A DNA stretch of 51,891 nucleotides, taken from positions 1 to 51,891 of the forward strand of contig JAQMWT010000243.1 in NCBI GenBank assembly GCA_029834535.1, written 5' to 3'. Below, piece after piece: positions 5,911 through 27,566 of this stretch. The position numbers and the translations under genes were made by a program. The stretch comes from Chrysophaeum taylorii (Eukaryota; Sar; Pelagophyceae; Pelagomonadales; Pelagomonadaceae). Position 1 is the first letter of the stretch, and each line of letters starts with the position of its first letter. Under the pieces are notes generated by a model that had not been told where the DNA came from, ran no database searches, and saw only the letters and a program-made list of their open reading frames with translations.

Positions 5911-6103
5911 TAGAGATAGAAAATTCCATATAGGGTTAGGAACCCCCCCTTCCCCCTTAACCTCATCACTTTACACCTACAACCATCAAATCGCTGTGTC
6001 GCACACCGTGCTGCTCTTTGTGTCGTTAGAGGACAGGACGAAAGGCAGCACTACCACTGCCATCATTCTCTACCAGAGACACAGTGATTTTCACTGTTCT
6101 CTA
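5911..6103 (+). repeat. LTR, family with TAGAGATA...TCTCTA ends (plus orientation)
   Basis: This 193-bp repeat starts TAGAGATAGAAAATTCC and ends TGTTCTCTA, so its termini form a short inverted repeat. Homologous copies lie at 11767-11965 (minus), 28649-28843 (minus, most similar) and 38255-38374 (minus, internally deleted). A conserved internal segment is CACACCGTGCTGCTCTTTGT. It also holds a C-tract after TAGGGTTAGG. The conserved pre-LTR motif on its left makes it the 3' LTR of the element to the left. Confidence 0.65.
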
Positions 6104-6990
6104 AACTCCCATAACCCGCTTGTCTCACCTCATGTTGACCATCAAGCTGACGTTGTCCTTAATCCCGAAAATGGCCAGCTCCGCGTTACCTCCAAGCTGA
6201 CCTTCACGTATATAATCCAACGCTCCACCCTGGATCCTGAACATGCTCCTCCACCTGATGCTCCGCCTGTGTCCTTCGACATTAACCCTCATGGAGATGA
6301 AGACCCCGATGATACGTTGCAGATGGGGATTCATACTCAGAGGGGGCACCCTCCTGCTCTTGCTCCGTCTGCTTCCCCCATTCCCACTCCCGCTCCGTCG
6401 CCGACTCCGCCTCCACCCTCTACTTCCACCACCGCAGCTTCACCTCCGGCTGACGACAATACTCCTGCTGACGCTCATACTATTACGCCACCGCCAATTC
6501 TTCCTTCTTACAAAGACTTGTTTTCTCAAGACAACCTTCAACTTGCCCCAGGTCCTAAGCGCCCCAACCAAATCACCCACCCTCTCCGCCCTCAACACCT
6601 CTGGTGGCATCCACTGGACGGTTCTCTGCCCAGAGGGGGGACAGGCTATGCTGGTCCAACACACCCTTCCACTGCGTACCGATCTTCGATCTCGATACCC
6701 GTTACTTGATGGTATTTTCTCGCAAACCAAGTGCGCATCCAGCATTCCAGTGGCTACACACCTCACCACGGATGACACTCCATGTCGCCACCTTCCGTCT
6801 ACACTTATTGCCATGTTCATGGAAAGCGCTTCGGCCTTCGGTGTTTCTCCATTGCAATATGCTTACTGTTACCTGGCACCCACCAGTTTCATTGACCATT
6901 CCTCTTCTGAGTTTGGCGCTACATCCTCCGAACTATCTGGCCTGGAGGAATATCTCCGAAAGAAGCTCACGGACGCGGATCGTGTCCGCA
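6104..6990 (+). pseudogene. Proline-rich ORF remnants, probable 5' coding part of the plus-strand copia element
   Basis: One frame reads through the LTR to a stop at 6707-6709 and encodes a Pro/Thr/Ser-rich segment (PTPAPSPTPPPP at about 6385), then SYKDLFSQDNLQLAPGPKR. After about 6690 the protein-like sequence continues in another frame (FSQTKCASSIPVATH ... SGLEEYLRKKL, to about 6965), so one frameshift is present. No gag zinc knuckle or protease triad is seen. Its place upstream of a copia RT on the same strand suggests a Gag-like role, but I do not recognise it. The 17-bp minisatellite interrupts it. Confidence 0.35.
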
Positions 6991-7029
6991 TCCGACCCGC
7001 GGATTTGGACCGTGACCGCAAGTGTCTGC

Positions 7030-7236
7030 GACCAGGGGACCTGCGGATGCGGACACCCTGCGGATGCGGACACCCTGCGGATGCGGACACCCTGCGGATG
7101 CGGACACCCGGCGGAACCAGCGGATGCGGACACCCAGCGGATGCGGACACCCTGCGGACACGGATAGCCAGCGGACACGGAGAGCCAGCGGATGCCGACA
7201 CCTCGCGGATGCAGACACCCAGCAAATGCGGACGCC
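7030..7236 (+). repeat. 17-bp minisatellite array 1 (CTGCGGATGCGGACACC)
   Basis: Four near-perfect consecutive copies of CTGCGGATGCGGACACC are followed by about seven degenerate ones (AGCGGATGCGGACACC, AGCGGACACGGATAGCC and others). Because 17 is not a multiple of 3, each frame cycles through all phases, giving a 17-residue protein period (ADADTL, RMRTP, CGCGHP). No stop occurs on either strand, so long ORFs crossing the array are artefacts of the repeat. Confidence 0.95.
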
Positions 7237-7369
7237 TGCGGTGTGGAAGCGTCGCGTCTCTCGTGTCGCGTCTCAGTTGCTTGACAACCCCACTCAATCC
7301 TTAACCTGTCCATGTGTAGTAAGGACCTCAATCCTTTACCCTCGTCTTGTGAGCGACACAGCGAGCGAG

Positions 7370-9358
7370 AAGCGGTCATGACATCAGCATCGGGAGGGGA
7401 GCGCGGGGGTTCAGAAGGTGCTGCGCAGAGGAAGCTCGTGTTCGGAGACTTTTCGAAGGACGTCGGGTACCAATTTTCCATGCCTGGCACCTGGTGGAAG
7501 GGCGGACTTCTGCGGAACGTCGAAGAGAATGGCAGGCATTTGTCGTTGAGCACCAACCAAAGCAGAATTTCCCGAGCGGAGTGCAGAAAGAGGCGTTGAA
7601 GATCACGTGTCCGGAGTACGAGGTCCACGACGACAGCGAGCGCGAGTTCTGGGTTGAATGTCGGAGTTCGAGGCCATTTCATTCGTTTGTGAGTATGAAG
7701 GCGCGGTACGAGAAGATGGATAAAGAGAACTATGAGCGTGTGAAGGCTCCGGCCTCGTCAACGCCTATTGAGAATCGCATGCCACTGATGGAACTACCGA
7801 GTACGAAGGGGGTGTCTCTGATGCCGACGACGATGAGGTGGCTAGCCAGCCTCGCTACAAGTCATTGTCAAATCGTTATTCGGAGTGGCGAACGGCCCCC
7901 TGGCCTGCATGTCCACCGACGGCGTTTCTGAGAAGAGCGTCGCGTTTCAAAGGAGATGCATCCTACCGGGCGGCAACAAGCTGCCACTGGTTTGGCAGGC
8001 TTGCAAGAGAAAGGATTCAATCAAGGAGCCATCGAACACCGGACGGATGTCTGCGTTTATTAACGGACACTATCCGGCCATCTACGACGAACGTATCCAA
8101 GGAAAGTCGCCGTTCTCCACCTCGCAGATTGTCACCGGCGAGGTCCGTCAGAGAAAGCCAACAAGGACGATGTCGCGTTAGAGATCGAGGACATGTTGCG
8201 CGAGGACATGCTGCGCGACCAGTACGAGAGCCTAGGTTCTGATACAGATGCGATTGCAAAGACCGACGCCCCGTCTAGAGCCGCCGAGTCCGCTTCTTAC
8301 TCCGCGTCTTTCGGCTAGGTTCCTCGGTCATTTAGTGACTTCGAATGGAGCGTCAACTCGCAGCTCGAGGCGGCCATGCAGCCGCCCATGAAACTCACTC
8401 CAGACCGAAGGCGACGTTCCAGTGACCGACATGGAGCGAGTGTACGTTCATCGTTGCATCAAGTCGCTTGAGAAACGGGAGCTGCGTGTCCCAAGACGGC
8501 ACACCGGCACTGGCCCAAATCGCAAATTATACGATGTTCCGTGGGATTATGTTGACCAGTCCTTTTAAACTTTCAGTTAGGTGCTTGTCGAAAAACTGAA
8601 GCCGCGCCGCCTGTGCCGCGCGCCGGCGGAAGCGGTGATGATTTGATGCTGTTGAATCCAACGCCCAAGCTCAACCAGATTCTGCCGCAGGCACAAGCCA
8701 AGCTCGCGACTGTCACGTTCGAGGCAGCTTGGGAGGAAGCAGCAGAGAGACTCGCTTCGCTTCAGCCAGAACCGACGCAGCCTTTGCCCCATGAGAAGAA
8801 GCGTCGTACTGCCGATTCCGATTCCGACTCCGACGACGATCTTCTCGACCTCGGCGATGACGATGAATCGGCGGATGAGCCAGTCTCTACGCCGCAGAAA
8901 CACGACGCTCACCGAGCTGGCTAAGTTCCGGGCGATGACTCATGATACATACAAGCAATTCGTTGCCGAAGATGGATACAAGCTATTCGTTACCGAAGAT
9001 GGAGCTCGCGGTAAGCGTCTCGATATTACAATGATGTATGTGAACTCGATGATCCGCGACGGCGACGATGTTGTTTGAGAGTAAGGGCTGCGCACAGTTC
9101 ACTGAAGCTCACAAGGAGCGGGTCTTCGGGTTCACGAAGCTGACCAAAATGCTGCTTCGCTCTCGCCTCAGGCCCAGGCTGCTCGAGGCCTCGTAATCAT
9201 CAAACATAACTTCACCATCTGGAAGAAACTCGACGGCGGCATCGACTACGACCGGCCATGGGCGTTGTTCAAAGAAACGCCAAACACCACTGGTGAGCAC
9301 GACAATCCCGAGTACGACACCGAGGTTGATGATGAAGAGTCCGGCGCCGAAAACACTT
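7370..9358 (+). pseudogene. Broken plus-strand gene of unknown function
   Basis: Protein-like segments follow one another on the plus strand with small frame changes. They are KLVFGDFSKDVGYQFSMPG (about 7430), SGVQKEALKITCPEYEVHDD (about 7572), RMSAFINGHYPAIYDERIQG (about 8045), ALEIEDMLREDMLRDQYES (about 8176), VTDMERVYVHRCIKSLEKRE (about 8422, ending at TAA 8566), an acidic run DSDSDSDDD (about 8815), and VIIKHNFTIWKKLDGG ending in an acidic tail at TGA 9356-9358. The MERVYVHRCIKSLEKR segment resembles a short DNA-binding helix bundle, but I assign no family. Frameshifts without obvious GT-AG introns suggest a pseudogene. The two minisatellite arrays of one family bracket it. Confidence 0.4.
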
Positions 9359-9939
9359 GATCGCATGTAGTCCTCGCACCTCCTCTGGGCATCCTCTCGC
9401 TCTACCCTTGATGACGCCCTTCTTTTTCTTTTCGCTCCTCTTTCGTGTCTCCGCTTCCTGCGGCCCGCGCCTCTTCTCCTCGCTCGAATGCCAACTCCCG
9501 GCCCGTGGCTTCTACGTCATCTTCTCGTCTGCAGCTCTCACCCTGCCTTGCCCTTGTCGCCGCCTCCTTCCTGTTCGCAAAGCCTGTTGCGTGTCCATCT
9601 CTCAGCCTTGAGCCGTAAGCCCAATACCGTCGAGCCTTTCCTGGCTCCCCACCCCGCCCGGGTCCCGGTGGGCTTCACGATCGCGCACTATGCACGTAAA
9701 CAGACTTCCTATCAAACGGGCGAGGGCACAGTTACGTAACTGGACGTGTTTCATGGCAAGGGCGGCATAAACTCCAACTTGCCTCTTTTTCCCTGCAACC
9801 GCGGACGCCCTGCAGACTCGGAGCAGCCGCAGGCGCAAGTGTGCCTGGGACGCCGACATGCGCAGATACAGCTAGACGGCAGGCACGGACGTCCCGCGAG
9901 TACGGTTAGACAGCGGATACGGCTGCGGACGCACCTCCG
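9359..9939. other. Spacer without recognisable gene
   Basis: Pyrimidine-rich sequence (9370-9610), then mixed GC-rich sequence leading into the second minisatellite. ORFs here are short, biased in composition and not supported by any motif. Confidence 0.6.
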
Positions 9940-11766: not shown

Positions 11767-11965
11767 TAGATAACAGTAATTTCAAATGTGTTACCCTTCA
11801 GCAGAGTGAGAGCAGTGGCAGTCTGCCCTCGTTCCGTCTCTAACAACGAGGACAGCACGGTGTGAATAACACCGCGTTTTTCTGAAATTAAAAGGTGCTA
11901 GAAGTAAGAGGGCTAACCCTAGGATACGGGGGGGTACAAACCCTAAATCAAATTTTGTATCTCTG
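11767..11965 (-). repeat. 3' LTR of the minus-strand copia element
   Basis: Read on the minus strand, the repeat begins (C)AGAGATACAAAATTTG and ends TGTTATCTA. It shares the CACACCGTGCTG segment and C-tract with the LTRs at 5911, 28649 and 38255. The motif GATTTCGCTCACCGAG ... GTGAGGGCG precedes it (11998-11966), as before the LTR at 5911. Its left edge interrupts the plus-strand copia RNase H coding sequence, which shows the order of insertion. Confidence 0.7.
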
Positions 11966-12007
11966 CGCCCTCACATATTGAACTCGGTGAGCGAAATCTG
12001 GATCAAA

Positions 12008-14019
12008 CTAAGCAGGAAGCGACTTTCCATCGACAATGATGTGAAGAGTGTTATGGGCGGAGTTGTACGGTGGAAGAGTAGCAGAAAGAGTAACTTGGTG
12101 AGATCGTGGTGAAGAAGAGGTAGAATGAACACCGTAGGCGTTCTTGAACTTGTGGAATAAATTGCGGGGAGTGAGTTTTGGAAAATGATCAGCGATCTGG
12201 TAGTGAGTGGGACACAAGAGGGGACGAATGACCGAGTTGGCCTGGTAGTCACGAATGCGAAATTCTCTTAAGTTGATATGACGAGAGGGAGCACTGACTT
12301 TAGAGTGATTAGCGACATGTAATGTGCTCGCGTTGTCAATAAGCAGGGGGGTAGCGTGAGCTTGATCACGTGAACACAAATAAGTATGAGAGGAGAAGGT
12401 CTTATGAAACCATTGGCATACATCCGCGGCGCGCTAGCGGCGATGAGTTCGGCTTCCATGGTGCTTTTGGCAGTAAGAGTTTGGCGTTTGCTAGACCAGA
12501 ATACGAGGTTGCCAAATACGAAAATACACGCACCAGAATGAGATCTTAAGCGAGGGTCAGAACGGTCAGCGAAACTTGCATCAGTAAAACAAGTAATGGG
12601 CGAACGAAGATGATGCAATTCTGGATAGTTGCCGATCAGATGCCGAATAAAGGGCGTAATAGAGGGGCGGTCGGATGAATAGTCTAGAGAATCATTCGGG
12701 GTACCCTTCAAATAGCGAAGTAAAACATACAAATGGAGAAGATGGGTTTGCTCAGGGTTGTGCATGCCTTTGCAGCATTTGTTGCACAGAGTGGTGATAT
12801 CCGGACGGCATGTGACAGACAAGTAGATACTAGTGCCACAGTAATGGGGAAAATGCTTGCGTAATAGTTCCAAAGTAGGAGCCAAGTCGGAAAGAAACTT
12901 AGCAGAAGGTTTCTGAGTGAGAATGTCAGAGTAGGGGACGTCAGAAGTACGGAGGTTAAGTTTATGCTCGGCGAGCATCTTGTTTATCTTCGCTGCTACA
13001 TTCATAGTGAGGTGACCAGCGGAGACGTTGTAATGTACGTCGATACCAAGAAAAGATCGTATGTTGTCGTGCCAGGTACCTTTGCCATATTCCTTCTCCA
13101 AAGCGGTGCGAAGAGATGTGATTTTGGCGGTGTTGGTACCAGTGATCAAGAGATCGTCGACAGAGATAGATAGGAGAACCCATCTGTTAATATATCGATC
13201 CCTACTGATATATAGACAAGTGTCGACTTGTGAGCGTTCAAACTCATGTTGTCGAAGAAACGAGTCGAGCTTAATGTTCGATAACAAAGCTGACTGTTTG
13301 AGACCATAGAGAGCCTTGGCAAGTCGGAGAGCTAACTTGGACTCTGGGTGGTTCTTCTGTATCTGCTGGACAAGGTTTTGTGAGACACGAATCCCTCGAG
13401 GTAAGTCTATCCATACCGGGCGATCAAGTGCCGATTGGATGAATGCCTGGGGAATGTCCGCGTGCGCGACCGGGAGCTTGTGCTTCACAGCGATGGCGAG
13501 CAATAACCGGTTAGTGGCGAGCATCGCGGTCGGTGAAGATGTGGCATAAAAGTCGATGCCGACACGTGCCAAGAAACCTCGGGCAACTATGCGAGCTTTA
13601 TGGTGGTCTGGGGTGCCGTCAGCAAACTACTTGATCTTCAGCACGAGTTTCGTCGAGATAGACGACCGGTCTGGCGGTAAGGGTTCTAGCTTAAAGACGC
13701 CGTTGGAGCACAAGCCTTCAATTTCCTTGCGAATCGAAGCAATATGCTTAAGCTTGTCTTCTTCGCTGAGTCCTTTGAGTTCGACAATCTTCTCGGGCTC
13801 ATATACTACGTCATCAGCAGTCACGAGTTGTAACACGACATGGTCGATGTGCTGCAAGTCATAGTCCATGACTTCTTGGAGAATGTCTTGATTCGGATCA
13901 CTTTGACTTAGAAAGAGGTGTCCGAGTTCGCCAGAGTCATGTATGAAGGCGTGTCTGTGACGAGAGGCTAGGTGGTAGTGCTGATGCGCTGAGATGTCCC
14001 ATAAGAGCGAGGAATTCAT
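12008..14019 (-). pseudogene. Ty1/copia reverse transcriptase and RNase H (minus strand)
   Basis: One frame stays open from 14019 to 12268 except for TAG 13627-13629. It begins with the RT thumb-proximal region (GLSEEDKLKHIASIRKEIEG, STKLVLKIK). RT continues with HHKARIVARGFL, VAHADIPQAFIQSALDRPVW and LALRLAKALYGLKQS. The catalytic SVDDLLITG is intact. RNase H follows (FTDASFADR, then SGACIFVFGNLVFWSSKRQT, then STMEAELIAAS). After a frame change at about 12375, the end of RNase H is TPLLIDNASTLHVANH and PTHYQIADHFPKL, stopping at 12008. RT copies RNA to cDNA and RNase H removes the template. Defects are few (one stop, one shift), so this is a relatively young copy. Confidence 0.92.
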
Positions 14020-14028
14020 ACAACAGAA

Positions 14029-15210
14029 TTATTGGTCCCATTGACGCGCATAGTACTCTGCCGGTGACAGTTCGTCGTTGCACACATAGTTCTCGAGAAC
14101 AGAATTGTCGTTGTCCAGGTGGTCGACCAATACAGATGAGTGGTACGGCTTCCTTGGGAAGTCAACGTACAAGAGTTCTGCGTCGGTTTCTCTCTGCAGA
14201 TCCAGTGCAGTGCCGCCCATGATACCATAGTCTTGGGTGGTATTTGCTAGGAGACATCCTTTCGGGACATCATCTGGCGCCTTAGCGTCCCTTCTAATGT
14301 TGAGATCAGATGCGATGCTGGCGGCATGGCCCTGGTGCAGAGCGCTGACACTGATGAGAAACATCAATGTGCTGGACATGTTGGCTGTGGCGCGAGCCGT
14401 AGGTTGCTCCTGCTGGTATTTCCAGTTGCGACCATACCATGATGCGATGGTGCGTCTGGTGAATAGTTGTCCATCGTCGACGTGTTTCACGATATAGAGT
14501 TGATCTTTGGGAATGCGGAATCCGCGCTCGTCCTTGAGATCTGCCTTGAGTTTGTCACTCTGGTTGCGATGCACGAGGACTGGAGTAAAACCTGAATCGT
14601 CGAGAACAACCTCTCGGCGATCCTTTCGCTTGGGCATCGGAATGCTACCATCCGGCGGAGGTGGCCGGTTGAGGAACGAAAAATCCTGTTCAGGTGTCTC
14701 GTCGCTGACGGGACGTGGACCAGTAGCAGAGGTTTGATCTGGTTCCTTATTCTCGTCGTCATCATTGGGTTCGTCATCCTGGTTGTTATCCTGAGTTTCG
14801 CTCTCATTTTGCGATTCCTGTCTGAGTTCCGACATTGGCTGCTCGCTTATAGCTGGGAGCGGGCCCTCTTGCTGTGCCTCTGCTGGGATCTGCGCCTGTG
14901 CTTTAACTCGCCCAATTTCCTTGTTGCGATTGACTGCCATGTCCGCATCAACGTGGAAGTCGTTCGAGGTGACGATTTTTCCATATCGCCCTTGATGTAA
15001 GCAGGATAGAGCTGTGAACATCACGGATAATCGGTCCGTGCCAGGGAGATTCGGTAGATAGTTGTTGCTGTGGAAGTAAGAGGCGGAGACGCTGGAGGGT
15101 TCCAGTTTGTGGCTTTGAGGATAGACGAATGTGACAGGTTCGCCAAAGGGGAGGAGCTTCAAGAGTGGTGCCGTGGGTGACATGATGCGCCGGGGGACGG
15201 TGCAGGTCAT
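14029..15210 (-). pseudogene. Copia integrase C-terminal region and acidic linker to RT
   Basis: Same frame as the RT segment downstream and the integrase core upstream, separated by TAA 14029-14031 and TAA 15286-15288. After LLPFGEPVTFVYPQSHKLEP (the region after the copia integrase core) comes a very acidic, Asn/Gln/Glu-rich linker (SETQDNNQDDEPNDDDENKE), a basic patch (PMPKRKDRREVV), then LYVDFPRKPYHSSVL leading to RT. No ATG is needed, as this is the inside of a polyprotein. That three neighbouring segments share one frame argues that the stops are point mutations. Confidence 0.75.
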
Positions 15211-15288
15211 GTTAGTGCGCGAGGGCAGTCCATGAGAGCGCTGATTGTCGGCGTGGATATTATGCAGGAGAGCAAACGGGTGGTATTA

Positions 15289-15930
15289 CTCGGCGCCAAT
15301 AGCCTTTCCTTCGATGCGGACGCTGCGCAGGTTAAGGAGGCGAACGACAGTGCCTCGAGTATTTTCTTTGATGATGTTTTCCGCGAAGTTCCGCTGGTGT
15401 AGGTGGCGACCAATGATTTGAAACTGGATACCGAGTTGCACCTTGAGCGGGTGGAAAGCTTCGGAGCGGAATGTGGAAAAAGCATCAGATGAGATGATTT
15501 TCACACTTACATCGAATTCGACCTTAATCACGTTGACCACGTAGAGGATGCCAGCCAGAACGTCCTGCGCGTCCAGTTTCCTCATGAAGTATACCCATTT
15601 GTGTGCCGAAATAACACACACGAAGTGCATGATGTAGCGGAATCCACCATAGCATTTGCTGATGCTCGGGTAGGATACATCCATGTGGAGATGTTGGCCA
15701 GGGGCATAGGCCAGTTCATCCTGTGACCAGGAAGTGTTCTTGTGGCTGAAGCTGACATGCGGTTGACAGTGCTTGCATTCGCTGCAGTCTTGCAGATACC
15801 GATCATCACCTGGGCGGAGATTCGGTACATTAGCGGCAATCGTGCGGCGAAGAATCTCGGGTTGTTAGTGGTGTATGCGGTGCCAGCGAGTGACCAAAAG
15901 CACTCTTTTCGCGTGCTGAATGGTGCCGGG
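15289..15930 (-). pseudogene. Copia integrase: zinc-binding and catalytic core
   Basis: On the minus strand the N-terminal zinc module reads WHRIHH, stop TAA 15865-15867, then QPEILRRTIAAN ... DCSECKHC, giving the HHCC ligand set. The core follows in the same frame: HMDVSYPS (first Asp), CYGGFRYIMHFVCVISAHKW, IISSDAFSTFRSEAF (second Asp), and QRNFAENIIK supplying the Glu. The enzyme joins cDNA to target DNA. The frame is the same as in RT, so the integrase, linker and RT were one polyprotein. The upstream linker (RIENLETLLAEATVAK) has a short coiled-coil look and joins to the methyltransferase. Confidence 0.82.
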
Positions 15931-16205
15931 TTTGTGCAAGGGGGGCAGAGCGGCAGTCGAAGCGCGAAGGGGGCTGGGTCGCTTGTCGACTCGGACTTTC
16001 GCAACTGTGGCCTCGGCAAGTAGCGTCTCGAGGTTTTCGATTCGCGTGGCTTGCGGATCGCAGCATGAGCATCTGCAACAGCATTGAAGAGGGAGGTGAG
16101 GTTGAGGTCCTCCACTGCTAAGAGACGGCTGGAGATGTTCAAGAAAAATTCTGCAACCTGATTGATGTCTCCGGGGCTGGGAATGCCATTGCGCATGGTT
16201 GCCCA

Positions 16206-17811
16206 TTCGATGTGAAGGTTCACGTGGTGATACGATTCGTGGAGTGCGAGGACAGCGCTGTACTTAGCCTGCAGCATGTTGTGCGGGACGGCGTTGGCCA
16301 GTGCCTTAAACGCGAAGTACGGCGGATGCTGTTGGAACAAGCGGAGCAGTTCCGGGTCCGAGTGGTGTCCAAACTTTGCGATTTCGTTGAGAGTCGCGTA
16401 TCGGATGTGTTCGGGTGAGATCAGCAGTAGTGCGTTGGAGTAGCTCGTATTGGTTGGGTACGAGCCAGTGACCGAGTAGCACTTTGTGCTTTTCGGGGGT
16501 GTGTCGCCGACGTGGCCAACATAGTGTGCATAGGTGGGGCGTGCTTCGGACATTATGAGTCCCGTGGGGTCATTGAGGATTATCCGCCCTTGTGAGTTGA
16601 TCGCAGCAAATCCGGGATGCGAGCGATTCATATAATGAACCCACGTGGAGGGGCGCGAGCAGCTGTGAGCGGCTGCCAAGGAGTTGGTGTAGGCGACGAC
16701 CAGAAAGGTGCCCTTGGGAACATTAAGGGAGAATGTTTGCGTTCGGGGGGAGACTGCGGGTTGGTGTGAACAGTCCATTATCTGAGGGGGCCGTGAATGC
16801 AAGGTGAGGGATGCGCGCGGGAAGTAGCCACATGCGACGGCGGTGGCGGCAGTGCCGGAGATGGTTCCATCTAAGTGGTAAGCACATCGAGACTCGGAGG
16901 CGTGAAAGCAGCGGAGTGTGTTCCGGGCGGCGAGAGTAGGGTGTTGCGACGAATGGTTGTGCAGCAATGTAAATACCAAGAGATGTGGGATGGTGGTCAT
17001 CGAGGCATGGGGGGTGCCGTCGGCGTCCAGGCCGAGATCCATGAAGGGCTTCTTCAGGCGTGCAAGCATATGGCAGATGCGTGCATTCTCGGAAATCGAG
17101 AGTTGGGCAGCATTGACGGGTGCATATGAGAAAGTGGCTTTGTGCAGATAATAATCCAAGGTGGAGCGGGTCACTGTGCCGCGAAGAGCGGGGTTGGATA
17201 TCCATAGATCTTCTGGTATAGTGTGACTTGGATCCAGGAGGGGAAGCATGCTCGGAGGAGATATTAACCAGGGAGGTTTTCTCGAGGTTGTAGCCGTTTA
17301 GCGGGTGTCGTGCAAAGACAGCGAGGTAGCGGTTCTTGCTTATGGCATCGCCAAAGGCGGAGGCATTGTAGACACCGGAGTGTCTGAAGTAACCCATGCT
17401 TTGATAGCATTTGGCGAGCTGGGTGTACTCGTGGTGGGTTCGGGGGTTTGGTGGTACATTATCGACAATGGTGTATGTCGGGAGCGTGCAAGGAACAAAG
17501 CGAATTTGTTCTTTGACGAAAAGGTCGGCGGTCGCCGGAGTGGCATACACGTCATAGTCTTTCATTACGCTCAGGTGCCGACAATGCAAGGTAAAAACAG
17601 CCAGGTCAAGGTGAGGTAGTCGTATTTTGCCGGTTTGCAAAGCGGCAGCGAGCTTTCTAAGATCCTTATAGTGCAGAGCGTGCGGGAACAGTTGCTGCGC
17701 GCGGGCGCGCATAATGGGGTTTATTTCACAGGTGGCAACGACAATGATGCGTTGGTCGAAGCGTGTGCGAAAAGAGGCGAAACCCTCTTGGTGGAGTCCA
17801 CCTGCAATAAT
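16206..17811 (-). pseudogene. Cytosine-5 DNA methyltransferase fused upstream of the copia integrase
   Basis: C5-MTases transfer methyl from S-adenosylmethionine to cytosine. Motifs occur in the right order. Motif I is AGGLHQEGF (about 17803-17777). Motif II is VVATCEINP. Then come LFPHALHYKDLRKL and motif IV FTLHCRHLS with the catalytic Cys at about 17581-17583; the usual Pro before it is His. Motif VI is IVDNVPP (Glu to Asp), then motif VIII SAFGDAISKNRYLAV, a target-recognition region of about 250 residues, and motif X ALANAVPHNML (about 16300-16270). One frame change lies at about 17245; otherwise the reading is continuous for about 520 residues. It runs via a short linker into the integrase module. 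I see no gag or aspartic protease between them. The N-terminus is cut by the gypsy element exactly at motif I. Confidence 0.82.
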
Positions 17812-17813
17812 GG

Positions 17814-18163
17814 TATGGCGGCACAGAAAAGACGTCCCGACCCCCGGGTGACAAAGGGGGTACTCACCGACTCGTCCGAGACCTCACTGAACGAGGAAAA
17901 CACGGACGCGGGGTCGGATAGGCTCGCCACACACCTTGCTCACGCTCACCAAGCCTCTCAAGAAGATGGAGAGATGGAATATGATAGCAAGGAAACTACA
18001 ATAATACAGCAAGAAAGCTTCTCACAAGAGACGTATGATGTCACTAAAAATATCGGGAAAGGTGTCCCGTTGAACGGGTATCAAGCCTCGAGAGAGGGGG
18101 AGTAAGCCTTAGCGGTCAGGAGTTGCCGCCACAGGACTCCCCTGGTGAGAACACGAGCTGCCC
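17814..18163 (-). repeat. 3' end of the gypsy element: probable LTR with 70-bp block
   Basis: The segment 17814-17883 is nearly identical to 27445-27514 (CCCGACCCCCGGGTGACAAA and flanks). On the minus strand the block ends GTGCCGCCA and is followed directly by the copia methyltransferase, so it should be the distal end of the 3' LTR. From about 17884 to 18163, after the integrase stop, there is no gene; the start of the LTR is not resolved. The other block lies just before the gypsy leader, as a 5' LTR end would. Confidence 0.5.
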
Positions 18164-19483
18164 TCAGCGAGTCCGGCGAGAAGCACGAGCCTTGGCTGAA
18201 TGAGCATCTCGAGAACGAATATTCTTGTAGGCACGTTCAACGACAGGTTCAGGAACGCGTCCACCACGTAAAGTGAACTTAGGAATCAACACATCGATCT
18301 CATGCGGAGCGAAGTCGGTGACACAAGGAGTGGTACTGTTGTTGACCTTGGTCTTGTCGGTGAAACTGCGACCGTCCACGTCCTTGTATTCCGGCTTAAG
18401 CTTGCGAGTAGAGAGATGTGGAGTAGGCCTGTAATAAGAAACCTTGTCATGGGGACCGAGATCAGCATAGAAATGCAGAGCGACTCGATCATTCACAAAA
18501 TCATAGGGTTCATAAACTTCAGCGACATAAATCTTCTTTCGCCAATCGGACCGTTTATTATCCGGAATCCGAAAAATAACGAACTTACCATGCTTGTAAT
18601 CATCCCGAAAGGTCTCCTTGGGCTTGGGCACAGCTCGATCGACCACTGGAGAAACCATCACAGGGGTAATCTGACTAACATGAACACAACGGCGTTCGGG
18701 AGGATAATCAAGAGACTCAATCCTGTAAGTGACCGGGGACAAGCGTTCCAAAATAACGAATGGACCGCGCCATTCCGGTCGAAGCTTGTTCTGAAGAAAA
18801 GGGATGTAGAGCAGAACATGTGAACCTTCTTCATACTCCACATCAACATGGTCCGCATTATAGGCGAGACGTTGTTTACGAAGAGCCTTCTCACGAGCTT
18901 CGTTCACCGTAGCGGTATAGAACTTCAGCCTCTCGCGAGTCTCTGCCACAACATCGGAGCGAGTTTTCGGCAGGCGGCGGACATCAAGATCCATGATCGT
19001 GTAATCGGTTGGCAATAAAGGCTGCCGGTTAAGACGAAGCATGAAAGGTGAGATCTGAGTCCCCGGAATAAATTTACGATTATAACAGAAAGCAATGTAC
19101 TCCGCGAATTCGGGCCATTCCGTGATCTTGCGGTTTTGAAGGCACGCACGGAGGAAAGCCTTGATAAAGCGGTTGACCCTTTCCGCAGGATTAGCCTGAG
19201 CATGATGCGGAATCGTGGTACTATACCGAACATTGAAAAGATGACAAAACTCTTCCATCAACTTGTTGACGAACTCTTTCCCATTGTCGGTACGAATCCT
19301 CTGAGGTAGATAACCTTTGAGTAATATATTCGCGACAAAAGACTCGAGGATTGACTCAGCAGTCTTATGGTGTAGTACGTCGAGAATCAAGAAACGAGAA
19401 AATGGATCAAAAAGACGATGAGATATGTCTCGGGACCAGCACTGGGCAAAGGTCCAAACAAATCCATACAAAGGACGACACAA
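18164..19483 (-). pseudogene. Ty3/gypsy integrase core, GPF motif and C-terminal domain
   Basis: The catalytic triad continues from the upstream segment: second Asp in RTDNGKEFVN (about 19260), Glu in HAQANPAERVNRFIKAF. The GPY/F-type module reads WRGPFVILERLSPVTYRIE. Beyond it are about 150 residues without a canonical chromodomain: KFVIFRIPDNK, WRKKIYVAEVYEPYDFVN, ALHFYADLG and LKPEY, a pattern like a small beta-barrel reader or BAH/Tudor-like fold. The N-terminal reading overlaps the previous segment in another frame (switch at about 19440), so one indel separates them. The terminal stop is at 18164-18166. Confidence 0.85.
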
Positions 19484-21075
19484 TCACCATCATACACCGG
19501 TTGCTGAAGCAGACCTGCTCTCTTTGGTTCAGGCGTACGAGCTTTCTTGCACACTATGCAACCAGCAATGTAAGCACCCACCTCATTAGACATACGGGGC
19601 CACCAAAAACGTTCAAGTATCGACTGCACTGTACTTTGACGACCCATATGACCACCATTGAGAGGTGTGTCATGGTACAATCGGATGATGCGCGTCCGTG
19701 AAGTTCGGGGTGCGACTATCATCGGGTGCAAGTCGGGTGCGGCACGGTAGAGAACTCCTTTCACCACTTGATAGCGATAATTGGCTCCGTACCGACGAAG
19801 AGAGTGGCCCTGAGCCATGCGATAACGAATGTCCTCGCAAGTAGCATCAGTGATCTGCTCTTTGGCTATCTCTTCCAAAGTCAAATTATCCGGAATCTTG
19901 TCGATGTACTCTTGGTAATCATCGGCATCACGGAAAATACTAGGCTGGGTCTGCAGACGTTGCTTCTGACGTTGTTTCGTAGCATGAGACGTGACCAATT
20001 GCATCGGATCATCGAGGTCTTCTTCCTCTTCCTCCACAGGCAACTCAGTCGTAACAAACGACAGAATGACATGGCGCCCAGGTAAAGGTACTCCTTCATC
20101 ATCAACATAACGAGAGGGCTCTTGGCACACTAGATACGCGTGGTTCAAGGGCTCACCAAACTCGTCCGTCTCGATGACATGATCTATAGGATTGCGAGAG
20201 AGACAGTCAGGGATGCTCATTCCCGGCGACTTCCCTGGCTTGTAACCCAATTCAGGATCAAAATTGGCGAGCCGCATCGCCCATCGAGCCAACTGCCCAG
20301 ACGAGTGCTTCGCCTTTCGTAAAAACGTCAAGTTGCGATGATCTGTTTCAAGGATCGTCTTGTGACCTTCAATATAAGAGCGGAAATGCTCTAGAGAAAG
20401 AACTGCCAGGAGCTCTAGCCGGCGAGGCTCATAGTTCCGCATCTCTTTCGGCACAGCTCGGCTCCAATACTCAATTACTCGTTCCTCTCGTGTCACCTTG
20501 CCAGTTTCGTCCTTGATTTCCACGAGCTGAAAAAGATACGCACCCAGACCATCCTTGGAAGCATCCGAGCGGATCTGAAAAGGAAGATCGTAGTCAGGAT
20601 GATAAACTCCACGAGAATCCACCAAAGCTTCGATGATCGTGTCCCATGCCTTTTGGCACTCAGGCGTCCACTCAAACTTAACGCCTTCAAGACACAATCG
20701 CCTAAGCGGCTCCACAATCTTCGAATAATTCTTCACATATCGGCGGCAATAGTTGCTCATGCCAATGAAAGATCGAATCTGGGTCTTCGGGGACGTATTG
20801 GGCAACGTACCGGGAATCGGCATCTGCTGCAACGCTTCTAACGTCTTGGGATTCGGCTTCAAGCCTTCCGGAGTCGAAATATGTCCCAAAAACTCGATTT
20901 CATCCTTGAGGAGGTGGAACTTCGAAGTTCGTCCACTATATCCTCGCTGTGCTAAATGGCACAACACTTCAATCAAAACTTGTAAATGTCGATGGAGTTC
21001 ATCCGATCCCATCATAATATCGTCGACAAACGCGACCAAGTCCTTATACATCCATGTGGACAAATCGCTAGCCAT
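19387..21075 (-). pseudogene. Ty3/gypsy RT (catalytic part), RNase H and integrase zinc domain
   Basis: It starts in the RT palm: WMYKDLVAFVDDIMMGSDE carries the catalytic FVDD. Next come EIEFLGHISTPEGLKPNPKT and RSFIGMSNYCRRYVKNYSKI. RNase H follows: FQIRSDASKDGLGAYLF (first Asp), RLELLAVLSLEHFRSYI (Glu), ILETDHRNLTFL (Asp), then DPELGYKPGKSPGMSIPDCLSRNP. The integrase zinc module (LYHDTPLNGGHMGRQST ... CIVCKKAR) and MDLFGPLPSAG with the first catalytic Asp come before the frame is lost at about 19440. Domain order RT-RH-IN is diagnostic of Ty3/gypsy. The frame shifts against the preceding RT segment at about 21095 by one base. Confidence 0.93.
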
Positions 21076-21109
21076 CTGCTTACAAAAGAGAGCTCCTGCT
21101 GTTTTACTC

Positions 21110-22042
21110 CTAGAGGCAAGCGCAAGAAACTATGGGCTCCACGTGGACTAACCATAGTAACAGCGTCCTGAGCAGCGGCGTCAAACGCAAGTTATGATAA
21201 CCCCATCGAATATCAATGCACGTCCGCCAACGGCGCATGGCAAGAAAAGCCAAAGCATCATCTTGACGAATATTCGGCCAACTGTCATTGACCAGCTGAT
21301 CATTGAGCTGACGCAAGTCAACGGCAGCACGAAAAGCATTCGACGTCCCGGCCTCGGCTCCCTTCTTAGGCAGCATCAGTACAGGAAATCCCCACGGAGA
21401 GTTCGCCGGTCGGATGACTCCATCGCGACACCACTCAGTGATCTGCTTTCTGAGACACTCGAGCTTTGCTGGCGTCAACCTATAAGGCGTCATCTTGATC
21501 GGTCGTGGGTTTGCGTCTTTAAAGCGTAGAGAAACCGGTGGCGAGTCCACGGGTCTCATAATCGGATCAAAGAAAGCCCACGCGTATTGCACGCAATGGC
21601 TCAACATCATCTTCGCATCATCATCCAGATGCGGGTTGTCGGGAATTCCTATATCTCGAACAACCTTCTCAATTTCCTTCGTCGGAATTCCGACTTTCAT
21701 CGCATCATTGTCCTTGACGTGCTCGGGAATCTGCGGTAACGGTACACCGTCCGCATCGCGCGGCGCATCCTTCCATGGCACATCGAACTTTTCTTCGTAT
21801 TTGAACCTCACCTCAGGGTGGCTCTTATTGATCTTTTCACCTTTGACGCGCACATTCGGCTCGCTCCTTACTTTCGGCTCCTGTTCAGGTTCAGGATCCG
21901 GCGGAACGTCCACTTTTGATTGTCGGGGGGCCCAGCAGAAAAAAGCATGAGCCGTCCCCGGCGCATCTGTTGGAAGCGGAAGCATAGGAACTTCTGGCGG
22001 TTCCCATTTAGTGGGATCCTGGAGATCATCCTTGACACCCAC
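21110..22042 (-). pseudogene. Ty3/gypsy RT N-terminal part
   Basis: A spacer rich in Pro, Glu and Lys (PPDPEPEQEPKVRSEPNVRV) leads into RT: NPRPIKMTPYRLTPAKLECL, WCRDGVIRPANSPWGFPVLM, FRAAVDLRQLNDQLVND and WRTCIDIRWGYHNLRLTP. RT continues across a short frame change to FLRLPLGVK and, after a 1-nt change at about 21095, AGALFCKQMASDL. The segment follows the methyltransferase region without a stop on conceptual joining. The local start at 22042 is a GTG inside the polyprotein. Confidence 0.9.
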
Positions 22043-22049
22043 TTAACGA

Positions 22050-23060
22050 CACGAGTACGCGTATTTAACAGCGGAATCTCTACGTGACGAAAGGTGGTGT
22101 CGGAGATTCGCAAATACTGCTCAAAGGATCGATCTGTCGGGCTCAACGCGGTCGGCAGGACTTCACCACTTTGGCGGAAACCTCTGGTCACGGAGTTGTG
22201 CAGATCGACTGCTAAAATCGCAAGAGTATCTGGAGGGACGACAGATGCTAAATTTGAACAATCTGTCTTAGACAAGCTAGCCCAATCATGATCCACCGGC
22301 ATCGTGAGCAACTCGGCCGTCATCTTGAGAGTCAAAGGCTGAGTGTCCGAGCGATGCGGTCCCAAACGAAGAGGAACCCGCGTAACGGTGTAAGCCGTAT
22401 CTGTTGCTTCTCGGGACGAGCCAAGATTATTCAGCTGGAGAAGGTGGCGTTCATGAGCATAACCTAAAGCTGCAGCAAATTTTGTTGCATGTTCACACAT
22501 GTCTTCGGAGCCTCTTGCAAGTGCAGTGGGTGACTGGAAACCAACAATCGCACGAGAGCTCATCAGATATCATGAAAATTGACGACGTACACGTAAGGGT
22601 GTAAGCGCGCTATATACGAAATAATGGACGCCTCCTGTTCAATCAGCCACATCATGAAGCCAGCCATCTTGCACAACTTCATCGTCCAGTTAGTGGCCGT
22701 AACACCCTTGCCAACATCTCTGGATGTCAAGTTGCAGAGTGCGGAATGAACGCAGGGCGGAGACGCTATACACATCGACGATGACCATTCCGCTTCAGGC
22801 AAATAAGCCTTGATCAACCGGAGGGTCGAGTCATATCGTCCACAGAGCGTGTGCTGGACCACAGGTATCTTCGGAAAATTCTTCTGATGAACCTTGTTGG
22901 CAGCTGTTGACGAGTCAAGAGCAAGGACGACTCGAAACGACGTCCCGCACAACTCGTTCGCTCGTTGCAGTCCTAAAGTACTTCCTCCGGCGCCGCTGAA
23001 GAGCATCACAACCTTGCGATACGTGATCGGCACCCAGTGGACCTTTTCAAACCTTCGGCG
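22050..23060 (-). pseudogene. Second cytosine-5 DNA methyltransferase, between protease and RT of the gypsy element
   Basis: Motif I is VVMLFSGAGGSTLGLQ (about 23009-22960). Motif II is VVLALDSSTAANK followed by QKNFPKIPVV. Motif IV is CIASPPCVHSALCN with the catalytic Cys at about 22750. A WLIEQE segment may stand for the ENV box. After a frame change at about 22565 follow FAAALGYAHERHLLQLNNLG and SSREATDTAYTVTRVP, where motif VIII should be but with the QxRxR residues altered. I see no clear motif X. It is therefore shorter and more divergent than the copia-borne enzyme, and its PPC box is better preserved. It lies exactly between protease and RT, in the same orientation, so it belongs to the pol polyprotein. 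Confidence 0.83.
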
Positions 23061-23193
23061 AATCTCGCCTTCTGTAACTTCTCGGCATTTCTTTTCCTCC
23101 TCGTCAGTTCGTCGGTCGAAATCGTCGTTACCGAGCGATTCTTGACGAGAATCTTCTTCTTATCGGCAGAAGGAGACGCCTTCTGCACTGAGC

Positions 23194-23523
23194 TCAAAGC
23201 ATCAGCTCAGGAGCCGCATTGCCTTGAGTAAGATGGCTTGCGACCGAAACAGTGAATGATAGGTTAGCCTTGTTAGATTCGGCTTCACCATCCTTCGTTA
23301 AATCGTCGACCGTCTCAGCATTCAGCTCGTCATCAAAACGAACAATATCGCCCAAAGCAAGGACTTCACCTTGAGTGATCACGGTCGGCACATCCTGGGT
23401 AGAAGATATCGCCACTCGAGCTGCGAACTTATCATGATCCTCAGGAGAAGAACACATTCCTTCGACTACCCCGAGTTGCTCGTACCCAGAAGACGTAGCA
23501 ACGAAAACTTGCCCAGTTTCCAC
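23194..23523 (-). pseudogene. Linker between protease and methyltransferase
   Basis: An acidic segment (ETGQVFVATSSGYEQLGVVEG, AETVDDLTKDGEAES) joins the protease frame at about 23525 by a one-base shift. A basic Lys/Arg-rich stretch follows in a third frame (TRRKRNAEKLQKARFAEG, about 23110-23050) just before the methyltransferase. GYEQLGVVEGMC and QGEVLALGDIVRF resemble the protein stretch that commonly follows gypsy proteases. No further function is assigned. Confidence 0.55.
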
Positions 23524-24472
23524 GGGCTCTGAAAGCGACTGGCACGCAGTAGGTGCGCCCAGGCTCGACCTTCATCGTGCGCGCAGCATAGGCTATCACT
23601 TCATAAGCATCGCTGTTCGAACTTTGAGAAGGCGTAACTGGAGGAACTTCCCAAGTCGTCGAAGCTCCCGCTCGTTTCGGCGGTGGACGCTGGAGGTCTT
23701 CAATCTTGCACAAGCGAGCGTAGACTCGGTTCTCAACTGTGCTCAGGCTTTGTTGCATCGCATGGTGCTGTTGCCCATAAACCTGAACTACCACGGGATT
23801 GCTCTCGTCATAAGTTGTTCTGAACGTCAAAATCGGAGAATCTACTCGTCGATCCTGCACCTTTAACTTCTTGCGCCCGTAAGCGACTTGTGTGCGTAGA
23901 AACGCAATGCGATTCCGCGGGTAGTCCACTATGGCTCCAAACACCCGAATATCGCGCGCTCCCAGCAAAAATAGATGATTAGTATCGGCCACAATGGAAC
24001 GGCCACGTCGTCCGCAAGCGCAATCCGCAATGCAACCCATTTGTGGATAGTCGTCTTGTTCAATCCTGACCCACAAAGTGCGCTCGACTGGAAGATCGCC
24101 CCGGTCAAGGATGATGCTATCCTTTTCCAGTTTTTCAACCATCCCACGACAAATATAAGAGACATCAGCCATTCCATCCACGCCTAAAGTCGTTGCAAAC
24201 TTCGGCCCGTCTCGTCGTCTATAAATATGACCCACTATAAACGTAAGGGTACCAGGGTCCAGGCAACCGATGAGGTCTTGCTCGATCTTTTCCCCATCGC
24301 TCGGCGACAGTGCAGTGTGATGACATCGTATCTCCGGTTTCGCATCGCCCGGAATCTGCATCGTCACCGCTGCAATATCTGGCGTACTACATCTCGCCGC
24401 TGAATCTATATTGGCGCTCGCCGCTTCGGCTGCTTCTTCGTTCCCCAGTTTCGCTGACAACAAATTTGACAC
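23441..24472 (-). pseudogene. Gypsy aspartic protease-like domain
   Basis: The retropepsin fold signature is present but modified. TLGVDGMADVSYICRGMVEKL occupies the active-site position (about 24190), where DTGA or DSGA is usual; here it reads D-G-M-A. The flap and second half follow (HLFLLGARDIRVFGAIVD, resembling the LLG...DWL box). The C-terminal part (RAGASTTWEVPPVTPSQ, VIAYAARTMKVEPGRTYCVPV) is a linker. The frame equals that of the upstream RS-rich ORF, from which it is separated by TGA 24476-24478; the local GTG start is unlikely to be used. Confidence 0.7.
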
Positions 24473-24475
24473 TTC

Positions 24476-25388
24476 TCAATCGGAGGCACATATCTCCTCC
24501 TTTATCTCTGGTAATCGTTTCTCGTCCAACAAATCGGACATTCCCGTCAACTTCTCCTCCATCGGCGCCGCTGTGGTCTGCTCTGCTGCGACTAAAACGG
24601 TATCGGCTAAAACATCGGCTAAAACGGTCTCGGGGGGCCCCGTAGACGTCGTCCCCGACGTCAACTCAAAAGGTCTAACGTCATCATCGTGAACTGCCCT
24701 GCAAGACATGCACATTGACGAATGGGGGGACACTGGAACCTGCGGCATGGGTTCGTCGGTCTCCGAATCTGAGTCTCCCCAGTAGTGCGGAGAATCCCAA
24801 GTAGCATCTGACATTGCTTCCACATACGATGTAGAAGGCCACCGAACGATCCGAGCGTTGGTGGTATGTTGCTCCTGTTGCAAACGATGGCTGCTCGTCA
24901 CAGCGACATCGGCAACATCATCGGAGACTCGGGCAGGGCGCGCCGTCGGGTAAAAGACAACCCCCGACATTGGCGGCGCGTCGCATAAAGATTGGAACGC
25001 GAAAGATGCGCTCGAATGTCCCGAACTATCCTGATATCTGCCTCCGTCATACTCGTCATCGTGATGTCGATGACGTCGGCGCCGGCGCGAATTGCGACTA
25101 GAGCTCCGGTGACGGCAAGGACTCGGGCTGTCTTGAGCAGTATAGGCTTTTCGATTAGGGCTCTGGCTTCGATGTCGGCGTGACGATCGTCTAGAAGGTG
25201 ATCGTCCGTCTCGCTGTCGTGTAGAAAACGACGTAGTATCCTTGATGCTTCTGACCTCGCTCACCATGGTCGCCATTGTGGTTCCAAGATCGGTGAGGGC
25301 CGTTTGAATTTCATTAGAAGGCTCCGATCCGTGCGTGGCGTTCGCATGAGATGCATCATCACGCTTCGCCCAATCGGACCGCGATATG
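24476..25388 (-). CDS. RS-rich ORF between Gag and protease of the gypsy element
   Basis: The frame is open directly after the Gag stop TAG (25391-25393) and runs to TGA 24476-24478. An ATG at 25276 could start a 266-aa protein. Its first 60 residues are an arginine-serine domain (RDGRSPSRRSSRRHRSQSPN, RHRSSSRNSRRRRRHRHH), as in SR splicing factors and in RNA-binding nucleocapsids. The rest is acidic, with SDSETDEPMP and a CMSC pair. It may replace the zinc-knuckle nucleocapsid that I do not find in Gag in CCHC form. It could be made by stop readthrough or internal initiation. Confidence 0.6.
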
Positions 25389-25390
25389 GG

Positions 25391-27013
25391 CTACTTCTTC
25401 TGCTCACGAATTCGCTTCCACATCGCACAGCAGTAACGATCCGGATCGCGGTTGCAAACTACGCGATTTCCGTGTTCATCTTCATCATGGGTGGTCCAGA
25501 AGAACCCACAGTGCGGGCACGTTCTCTTGCCCCACAAACAAGGATCTCGTAAAATCAGCGGATCCGTATTCCCTGACGGTTTATCCGCATCTTGCTTGAC
25601 TTGTTGATCGGAGGCCATAGCTCGACCTCCCCGCCCTCGCGGCGGTTTGTTCGATTTCCGATTAGGTGGGCCTTGGTCCTTCTCCTCCTCCATCAACTTC
25701 CGTAAGTCGTTCTCGAGCCGCGTAATAAGCGCTACCATCGACTTTGAAGTCACGTAACTATCCGGATGTCCGCTCCTCATAGTCCGCACACGGGTCCTCA
25801 ACTCCTTGGACGTCAGTCCACTGATAAGCTGGTCGAGGATATCGACATCATCCATCGTGCGGATGGACACGGAACAAAACTCCAAGGCTTCAGATTGGAA
25901 TCGGGTACAGTACGTTTGGACGTGCCGCTCCCCAGACTTCTTCGGAACTGAAGCCTGGGTGACCTTCCGCAGCTTGTCAAGCAGCTCCTGCTGCGTGCGT
26001 GGAGGTCGGCAAGTCGATCTAAAATAATCCAAAATCTTGTCGCAATACGTCTTGTTAAGACGACGGATACGACGAACCGAGACTCCATGCTCTTCGTCGT
26101 CAATATCTAATTTCAAGTAAAACGATGGACCGTGTGGTAGCTCATCGCAGAGCTCCTCGTATTTCTGCAAGTGCTCCTCGAAAATTGGTGCAACGGTGTC
26201 CCGTAGATGCACAGGTAGTAAGTAACGTAATTTCTCGACCGAGTAATGGTCATCTGCTAAAGTATGCATCATCGCCGCCGAATCCAAATTGAATTGCCGT
26301 TGGTCTCGGCCGTCGATGGCGAGTTTGAAGTTATCAGGCTTCAAACTGGAAGTGGGTCGATGGGATCGGCTCAAGTTGCCCTTTTCGAAGGCGTTGGCAA
26401 CCGTCTGCGATATTCCCCGCGATAATTCCCGTAAAATTTTCGTACTTGCATTCTCAATGTCCGCCCTACCCTCATTCTCCGTATCGACTCGGGGCGGAGG
26501 TTCATTCCCCGTTTCAGTGTTCCTTTCCGGTTCGGGTCGACTCACGGGTCGTTCGCGGCTACTCTCCCGACGCGTACGTTCGGCTAACAATTCATCTCGT
26601 TCACGACGAAATCGTTCAACCTCTTCGCGTAGGGTCTTCGAGGTCTCGATCTCTTGCTGTAATGCATCATTGAGCATATCAACTTCTCGTCGAGCCGTTT
26701 CCTCTTTCGATTCAGCCCTTTCACGAGCAAAAAGCTCAGCTAATCGTTCATTTTCGCGGCGTCTCTGCTCGAGGTCTTCACGAAGTCGACTTCGGGCTGC
26801 AGATCCGCGCTCAATAGTAACACGCTCGCCACGATCCGGAGTCGTTGGACTCAACGGCGGGAAAATGGCAGCATCCGGAGGTACATCAGGGGGCACGTCA
26901 GCAACGTCGACTGCCTTGGCCTCTCCTAATTCACCTTCCTCGCGGCCTATCTCAGGGGCGGCGGGAAGAACTGGTGGAGATTCTTCCTCACGCACGTCTG
27001 CGTTTATCTCCAT
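25391..27013 (-). CDS. Ty3/gypsy Gag polyprotein
   Basis: I place the start at ATG 27013 (MEINADVREEESPP), because the frame upstream of it opens only with GTG. About 540 aa. Residues ~50-160 are a long charged coiled coil (RLREDLEQRRRENERLAELF, REEVERFRRERDELLAERTR). The capsid-like middle reads PVHLRDTVAPIFEEHLQKYE, KTYCDKILDYFRSTCRPP and YCTRFQSEALEFCSVSIR, matching the helical Gag fold. The tail is basic (NRKSNKPPRGRGGRAM) and ends in an unusual Cys/His cluster: CPHCGFFWTTHDEDEH, then CNRDPDRYCC. That is not the standard CCHC knuckle. The frame is intact over its whole length. It ends in TAG at 25391-25393, with an open frame following. Confidence 0.85.
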   Translation of the reverse strand: MEINADVREEESPPVLPAAPEIGREEGELGEAKAVDVADVPPDVPPDAAIFPPLSPTTPDRGERVTIERGSAARSRLREDLEQRRRENERLAELFARERAESKEETARREVDMLNDALQQEIETSKTLREEVERFRRERDELLAERTRRESSRERPVSRPEPERNTETGNEPPPRVDTENEGRADIENASTKILRELSRGISQTVANAFEKGNLSRSHRPTSSLKPDNFKLAIDGRDQRQFNLDSAAMMHTLADDHYSVEKLRYLLPVHLRDTVAPIFEEHLQKYEELCDELPHGPSFYLKLDIDDEEHGVSVRRIRRLNKTYCDKILDYFRSTCRPPRTQQELLDKLRKVTQASVPKKSGERHVQTYCTRFQSEALEFCSVSIRTMDDVDILDQLISGLTSKELRTRVRTMRSGHPDSYVTSKSMVALITRLENDLRKLMEEEKDQGPPNRKSNKPPRGRGGRAMASDQQVKQDADKPSGNTDPLILRDPCLWGKRTCPHCGFFWTTHDEDEHGNRVVCNRDPDRYCCAMWKRIREQKK

Positions 27014-27444
27014 ACCGTATAAAATATCGATCAAGAATCTCGAAACACGTCCGGATCCGATCACTCGAAGTTATTCACGTTGATTCCAATAACGCTATCT
27101 GTCGCTGTAAAAACAGCACTCACGGAATTCCAATCCGCTGGCAATTCAAAAATGCCCGTGGGTAGCGATCCCACTCGCTAAACAGCTTCCACCGTTCAGC
27201 TATACCAAAATCAATTCCCGGGAGAATGCGCTGCGATTTCCAACTCGCACGCGTGTTCGTCGTCACTCGGATCGTACGAACACAAACAACGTTCGCGTAT
27301 ATTCTCAACGCAAACCGGTCCAATGGAGCTCCGTGTGCTTGATCAGGGCGCACGTGCAAATCCGGACCTCGTAATACAACACGTACGGCAGCACTCGCTC
27401 GTCGGCGACCGATGTAGTCGCACGATCTCGTGTACTCCACCACG
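27014..27444 (-). other. 5' leader of the gypsy element
   Basis: Lies between the 70-bp LTR-end block and the Gag ATG. No gene. On the minus strand a TGGTGGAGTACACGAG segment starts a few bases after the block (27440-27425), in the place of a tRNA primer-binding site; I cannot name the tRNA. Confidence 0.4.
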
Positions 27445-27514
27445 TATGGCGGCACAGAAAAAAACTTCCCGACCCCCGGGTGACAAAGGGGGTACTCACC
27501 GACTCGTCCGTGAC
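27445..27514 (-). repeat. 70-bp block matching the other end of the gypsy element (truncated 5' LTR)
   Basis: Near-identical to 17814-17883, with a 1-2 base length difference in the A-run. Beyond 27515 the two loci diverge, so only the last ~70 bp of the 5' LTR seems to remain. Confidence 0.55.
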
Positions 27515-27566
27515 CGAGAACATTAAACATGTCTCTTTATTAGATAACATTTTGTCAAGTCTTCAA

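Follow-up and report, generated by a model that had tools for sequence, protein, structure and literature searches.

DNMTs have been described in LINE and DIRS elements of Symbiodinium and in a Gypsy element of Klebsormidium, and in the available part of the same paper the Copia elements of Symbiodinium are given as lacking a DNMT domain (de Mendoza et al. 2018, PMC5890265). DCM has likewise been reported in Ty3/Gypsy and DIRS elements (Morozov et al. 2019, PMC6338049, accessible portion of the text), and an Ectocarpus DNA transposon carries a methyltransferase (MTase) of adenine or N4-cytosine type (PMC12477816, as excerpted). According to one sentence in the accessible text of Sarre et al. 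(2025, PMC12344493), which cites de Mendoza et al. 2018, DNMT3s occur in LTR Copia as well as DIRS elements; the cited paper, as far as its available part goes, describes Gypsy, and the mention of Copia may be a slip. Besides this sentence, no recognised description of a copia element with a C5-MTase was found in the open-licence literature.

The Ty1/copia lineage of Chrysophaeum taylorii described here is similar to KnitGypsy-Dnmt3 of Klebsormidium nitens in being an LTR element with a C5-MTase inside Pol, with catalytic residues kept and under purifying selection. However, KnitGypsy-Dnmt3 is a Gypsy element with a clear DNMT3, whereas the element here is a copia with an MTase of unplaced class (comparison with the available part of PMC5890265). 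With SymbioDIRS-Dnmt3 and SymbioLINE-Dnmt of Symbiodinium it shares a retroelement C5-MTase and a high copy number, but these are DIRS and LINE elements, not copia (PMC5890265, same part). The DIRS, LINE and gypsy cases were already known; a C5-MTase encoded in the Pol of a copia lineage appears to be new. A separate acquisition of the copia MTase, as the earlier note on this DNA had put forward, is plausible, since the published cases concern DIRS, LINE and Gypsy elements in the texts as available, and no link to the gypsy MTase described below was detected with the shallow alignments at hand.

The window, which is the whole stretch of 51,891 nucleotides analysed here (contig C243), belongs to an assembly of 70.8 Mb in 697 contigs. 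Its minus strand harbours a Ty1/copia remnant reaching from the MTase to the 3' LTR (11767..17813), recovered as one 85.8% nucleotide match to positions 3525-9584 of a longer relative on contig C96 (locus L069). All parts of the remnant are on the minus strand. MTase motifs I to VIII (AGGLHQEGF, HCR, DNVPP, SKNRYLAV) are located at 17256..17811, and the target-recognition part (TRD) and motifs IX-X (ALANAVPHNM) follow in the next frame at 16206..17297, as placed by genome matches and by alignment with P0001, a copia polyprotein described below. The integrase zinc module and the start of the catalytic core occupy 15286..15864 (rve E=1.1e-5, 26.1 bits, below the cut-off of 32.6). The remaining integrase and the linker to the reverse transcriptase (RT), at 14029..15285, have an interrupted frame in line with the C96 frame, and no Pfam family above cut-off was detected there in a Pfam profile search. 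The copia RT is present at 12268..13626 (RVT_2 E=1.7e-35; 102 genome matches), followed by an RNase H stretch (LIDNASTLHVANH...RHINLREFRIRDY) at 12008..12433, recognised by eye against the P0001 C-terminus, and by the 3' LTR at 11767..11960, which matches the C96 LTRs and whose upper limit is approximate. The window copy possesses no gag, protease or 5' LTR (protease coverage 0.00), as homology to C96 stops at 17813, the junction with a 72-bp repeat that forms an end of a Ty3/gypsy element. Its reading frames are broken several times, and this copy is dead.

The MTase motifs reported in the earlier note were found where it had placed them, on the minus strand and in two frames meeting near 17245-17297, although motifs IV and VI of the window copy are atypical, reading HCR and DNV against PCQ and ENV in the family. 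When the MTase pieces of the window were searched separately, the piece 16723-17883 reached PF00145 at E=0.015 and 15.2 bits, below the curated cut-off of 22 bits, and the piece 17256-17811 matched TIGR00675 at E=0.0039, below its cut-off. The piece 15582-17297, which holds the TRD and motifs IX and X, matched no Pfam family in the Pfam search. Taken alone, the window copy is therefore marginal. The PF00145 assignment proposed for it was recovered above cut-off at 55 sister loci, and the identity as a C5-MTase is confirmed on these sister copies, not on the window copy.

At least 57 PF00145 matches were found in the genome (123 of 474 candidates scored), all above the curated cut-off; 55 of the 57 listed fall at loci of this copia family and the other two correspond to host genes. 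The matches span at most profile positions 20-177, so that the TRD and motifs IX-X are outside. The best piece (L003) reached PF00145 at E=1.9e-12. It aligned weakly with M.HhaI (E=0.023), with PCQ on PCQ and ENV on ENV, and its seven listed matches comprise five HhaI entries, one HaeIII entry and one unrelated channel. Catalytic motif IV is PCQ in 50 and motif VI is ENV in 54 of 60 locus rows, a set that counts the window copy and some other copies twice. Motif I reads IIAGGLHQE and motif VIII SK(T/N)RYLAV in most rows, both departing from the usual FxGxG and QxRxR.

The search with the 17256..17811 piece revealed at least 152 genome matches (150 listed) and that with the 16206..17297 piece at least 115; merging 142 and 110 matches, respectively, gave at least 147 MTase loci on 111 contigs. 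Separate insertions are somewhat fewer than loci, because some contig pairs look allelic (C10/C297, C25/C521). Twelve of the 150 listed matches to the 17256..17811 piece lie in open frames of at least 1000 aa, as read by eye.

The relative on C96 is a longer copy. Its LTRs, of 208 and 196 bp and 89.4% identical with gaps counted, read TAGAGAT...TTCTCTA, and CTCAC flanks both LTR ends in this one copy, as read by eye. A 578-codon frame without significant Pfam match occupies the gag position. It is followed by a single 1952-codon pol frame containing, in order, a protease-like stretch (SLIDGGAS, residue 79), the MTase (about 309 to 850, with the Cys of PCQ at 387, the Glu of ENV at 427 and ALANAVPH at 816), a zinc-module-like stretch (956-996), an rve core (1016-1110, E=0.0061, below cut-off) and RVT_2 (1686-1933, E=1.6e-38). 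The MTase of this copy matches PF00145 at E=1.1e-7 and TIGR00675 at E=2.8e-8. The Pfam search returned no protease match in the pol frame, and when 568 aa of C96 were searched against the PDB, no match was obtained at E 1. The integrase, with its rve-like core under the cut-off, precedes the RT as in Ty1/copia. Together with RVT_2 in the window, this frame upholds the minus-strand copia identity given in the earlier note, and it contains the C5-MTase N-terminal to the integrase in one polyprotein, as described there. The intact order MTase-integrase-RT-RNase H, also proposed there, was found in one frame up to the RT; the frame stops after RVT_2 and the RNase H part is in a separate frame, so that the C96 copy is also interrupted.

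The earlier note had further placed the MTase in the space of gag and protease. This arrangement was rejected, as in relatives a gag-position frame and a protease-like stretch lie upstream, and the MTase is encoded between that stretch and the integrase; the appearance arose because the window copy is cut at 17813. Coverage of the protease stretch reached 90% or more in 25 of the 30 loci sampled, and 26 of 30 others showed the same for the integrase. These flanks, with the LTRs and target duplication of C96, identify the MTase as part of the element and not a neighbouring host gene. In 24 of 28 alignable loci (29 taken, L010-L038, with the stretch 2580-2660 of L069) the gag stop and the pol ATG overlap as TGATG, which may provide a stop-restart route to Pol. 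In all 27 readable of 30 loci (L009-L038) the protease motif has DGG where DSG or DTG would be expected, and the family has been successful despite it.

Of the 93 RT matches of the lineage, 64 have a listed MTase on the same strand within the 7 kb upstream. The remaining 29, for which none is listed, may be cut copies, have unlisted MTases or represent MTase-free forms. No such MTase was found upstream among the first 70 rows of the RVT_2 list of the genome, and other copia families of the genome seem to lack it. Divergence of the MTase correlates with that of the integrase (r=0.88, 26 loci; 0 of 999 permutations). The median dN/dS of the MTase is 0.172 (0.158 for motifs I to VIII, 0.183 for the TRD and 0.132 for motifs IX-X), in comparison with 0.088 for the integrase and 0.293 and 0.200 for the linkers before and after the integrase (29 loci, with 241 to 382 of the 406 pairs entering, depending on the region). 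The MTase is thus under purifying selection, which is weaker than that on the integrase.

The two host PF00145 genes lie on C634 and C621. The gene on C634 is DNMT2-like (1g55, 7.7e-39), and its locus is overlapped by a frame for a chlorophyll a/b-binding protein (PF00504 E=1.2e-13), which has PCPI, VCPI and FCP antenna proteins among its relatives of solved structure. For the gene on C621 the match is to 7r76/7t02 (3e-143), entries that bear the name Rad8 and that we take to be Cryptococcus DNMT5. A protein search with a ten-row alignment of the copia MTase detected no DNMT relative (7999 candidates scored, with no match at E 0.01), and the PDB search with the same alignment gave one match, a cytosine methyltransferase, at E=0.22. 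Twenty-five pattern matches to the copia MTase in viral contigs were not confirmed, and profile comparisons of this alignment and of the gypsy MTase with the DNMT5-like gene found nothing. The alignment has low diversity and three of its rows (L063, L065 in its first part, L067 at its start) are out of frame, which weakens the protein, PDB and viral searches, the alignment with P0001 and the comparisons with the gypsy MTase and the DNMT5-like gene. The structure predicted for 17256-17811, aligned with P0001, had a mean pLDDT of 36.8 and was uninformative.

The search with C96 residues 300-1952 revealed 108 polyproteins, including P0001, a protein of 2396 aa from ENA with 34 member sequences (E=1e-143 to the C96 query). 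P0001 possesses a DSGAT protease, an MTase-like domain with the motifs FDLAVFTLPCQ, NEMVPP and IANAVP, integrase, RT and RNase H in one protein. Similar to C96, the order is protease, MTase, integrase and RT, with the RT 38% identical, and in the ten-row alignment the MTase is 29% identical to that of the copia family over 493 columns. Unlike the family, P0001 has NEMVPP in place of ENVPP, without the Asn of ENV, and DSGAT in place of DGG. Pfam did not detect PF00145 in P0001, and the remaining 107 polyproteins, none with PF00145 among its listed domains, may therefore still contain diverged MTases. The search with the P0001 MTase region returned only P0001 itself among 4187 candidates. On these comparisons the fusion of MTase and copia looks old, although the present data show it in no more than two lineages.

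Among the other copia polyproteins, the precomputed list for P0052 includes PF00856 and PF21549 (SET domain), and P0035 has a SET match at E=0.0012 and 19.6 bits, below the cut-off of 22.4. Histone methyltransferases may also have been captured by copia elements, judging from these domain matches. The SET search of the C. taylorii genome gave 40 matches across the whole genome.

The Ty3/gypsy element that abuts the copia remnant is located at 17813..27515 on the minus strand and has 72-bp terminal direct repeats (17813-17883 and 27444-27515) that are 94% identical, with RVT_1, RNase H, H2C2 and rve between them. It encodes a second C5-MTase, whose first half (FSGAGG, SPPC) lies at 22563..23159 on the minus strand (PF00145 E=1.2e-4, 22.1 bits against the cut-off of 22) and whose remainder continues on this strand to about 21868 in another frame. 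Another copy of this MTase matches PF00145 at E=7.4e-6. The matches of the gypsy MTase to PF00145 cover no more than roughly the first 50 positions of the profile. At least 150 genome matches were found (150 of 839 candidates scored). In a gypsy copy on contig C5 a single frame of 3067 codons holds the MTase, followed by RVT_1, RNase H, H2C2 and rve, with PF00145 at 18.9 bits, below the cut-off. Between two copies its dN/dS is 0.056, with synonymous differences of 0.71, near saturation. The profile comparison of gypsy and copia MTases detected no link (probability 0.3%; 2 and 10 sequences, shallow), and the PDB search with the gypsy pair listed DNMT2 entries (E=0.11-0.12) along with two unrelated ones. 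The different places of the two MTases in Pol also favour two captures. That the gypsy element had simply inserted into the copia copy was not supported: blastn detected no C96 copia sequence past 17813 except a 3' LTR match, and the bases flanking the gypsy repeats have no shared duplication, as seen by eye. Elsewhere in the window, 34508-37292 and 49784-51721 are copies about 95% identical over long stretches, read by eye as a non-LTR endonuclease-RT element.

The reading we lean towards, with moderate confidence, is a Ty1/copia lineage whose Pol comprises protease, C5-MTase, integrase, RT and RNase H, and whose MTase, of predicted catalytic activity, methylates the element itself. Retrotransposon DNMTs are reported to be able to act on DNA in work of de Mendoza and colleagues. 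Pol would be translated after gag, perhaps by stop-restart at the TGATG overlap, and the protease would release the MTase, which as a Pol product could be packed in the particle with RT and integrase. The enzyme could then methylate the cDNA of the element or its new insertion; new copies marked in this way would be restrained or disguised, which would favour persistence of the element. Self-methylation is favoured on the grounds that selection maintains motifs IV and VI as well as the protein. Two points temper confidence in this mechanism: the open frame of C96 does not continue into RNase H, and the CpG evidence points both ways. The CpG observed/expected ratio is 1.02-1.03 in two copia stretches, 1.21-1.30 in gypsy stretches and 1.26 and 1.46 in two host loci; as the copia values are below those of the host loci, a mild CpG effect is possible. 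Over 28 loci, C-to-T changes are a median 1.20 times as frequent at CpG as at other C, and CT is no lower than CG when all pairs are taken. A strong footprint of lasting CG methylation was not found in the copia copies by either comparison. This result speaks against a CG-methylating role. The atypical motifs I and VIII, NEMVPP and the undetected PF00145 in P0001, the DGG protease and the 29 of 93 RT matches without listed MTase also count against the favoured reading.

Several of these observations would also suit an MTase fold that methylates RNA, like DNMT2, or whose role is limited to binding SAM or nucleic acid, in the service of packaging, particle assembly or the integrase. We regard this as a less likely possibility. 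It would agree with the absence of CpG depletion and strong CpG hypermutation, the altered motifs VIII and I, the higher dN/dS of the MTase relative to the integrase, and the missing Asn of ENV in P0001. Nevertheless, most copies retain the Cys context of PCQ and the Glu of ENV, and these coincide with those of M.HhaI. It is less likely still that the MTase targets other DNA, silencing rival elements or host loci or shielding the element from restriction or invading DNA. A neighbouring gypsy family with its own, even more numerous MTase would fit such a role, and anti-viral functions have been speculated upon in the accessible part of PMC6338049, but a Pol product most easily acts on its own cDNA. 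Chance motifs, or a host MTase gene adjoining a copia fragment, could have explained a copy that is frame-broken, cut at 17813 and weak in score, but this is rejected as extremely improbable on the open C96 frame shared with the RT, the same neighbours across many loci and the 55 loci above the Pfam cut-off.

The copia and gypsy families together account for roughly 300 listed MTase loci or matches, compared with the two host PF00145 genes found. It is somewhat probable that the copia capture predates the split from the P0001 lineage, and that the MTase would therefore be a stable part of a copia clade. The two families suggest that elements repeatedly capture the type of enzyme that hosts use against them. 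A copia MTase between protease and integrase, beside a gypsy MTase, would show recurrent capture across LTR superfamilies. The missing CpG footprint may mean that the substrate is perhaps not genomic CG sites at all, and the copia and gypsy pair offers a setting in which to ask if self-methylation aids the persistence of an element.
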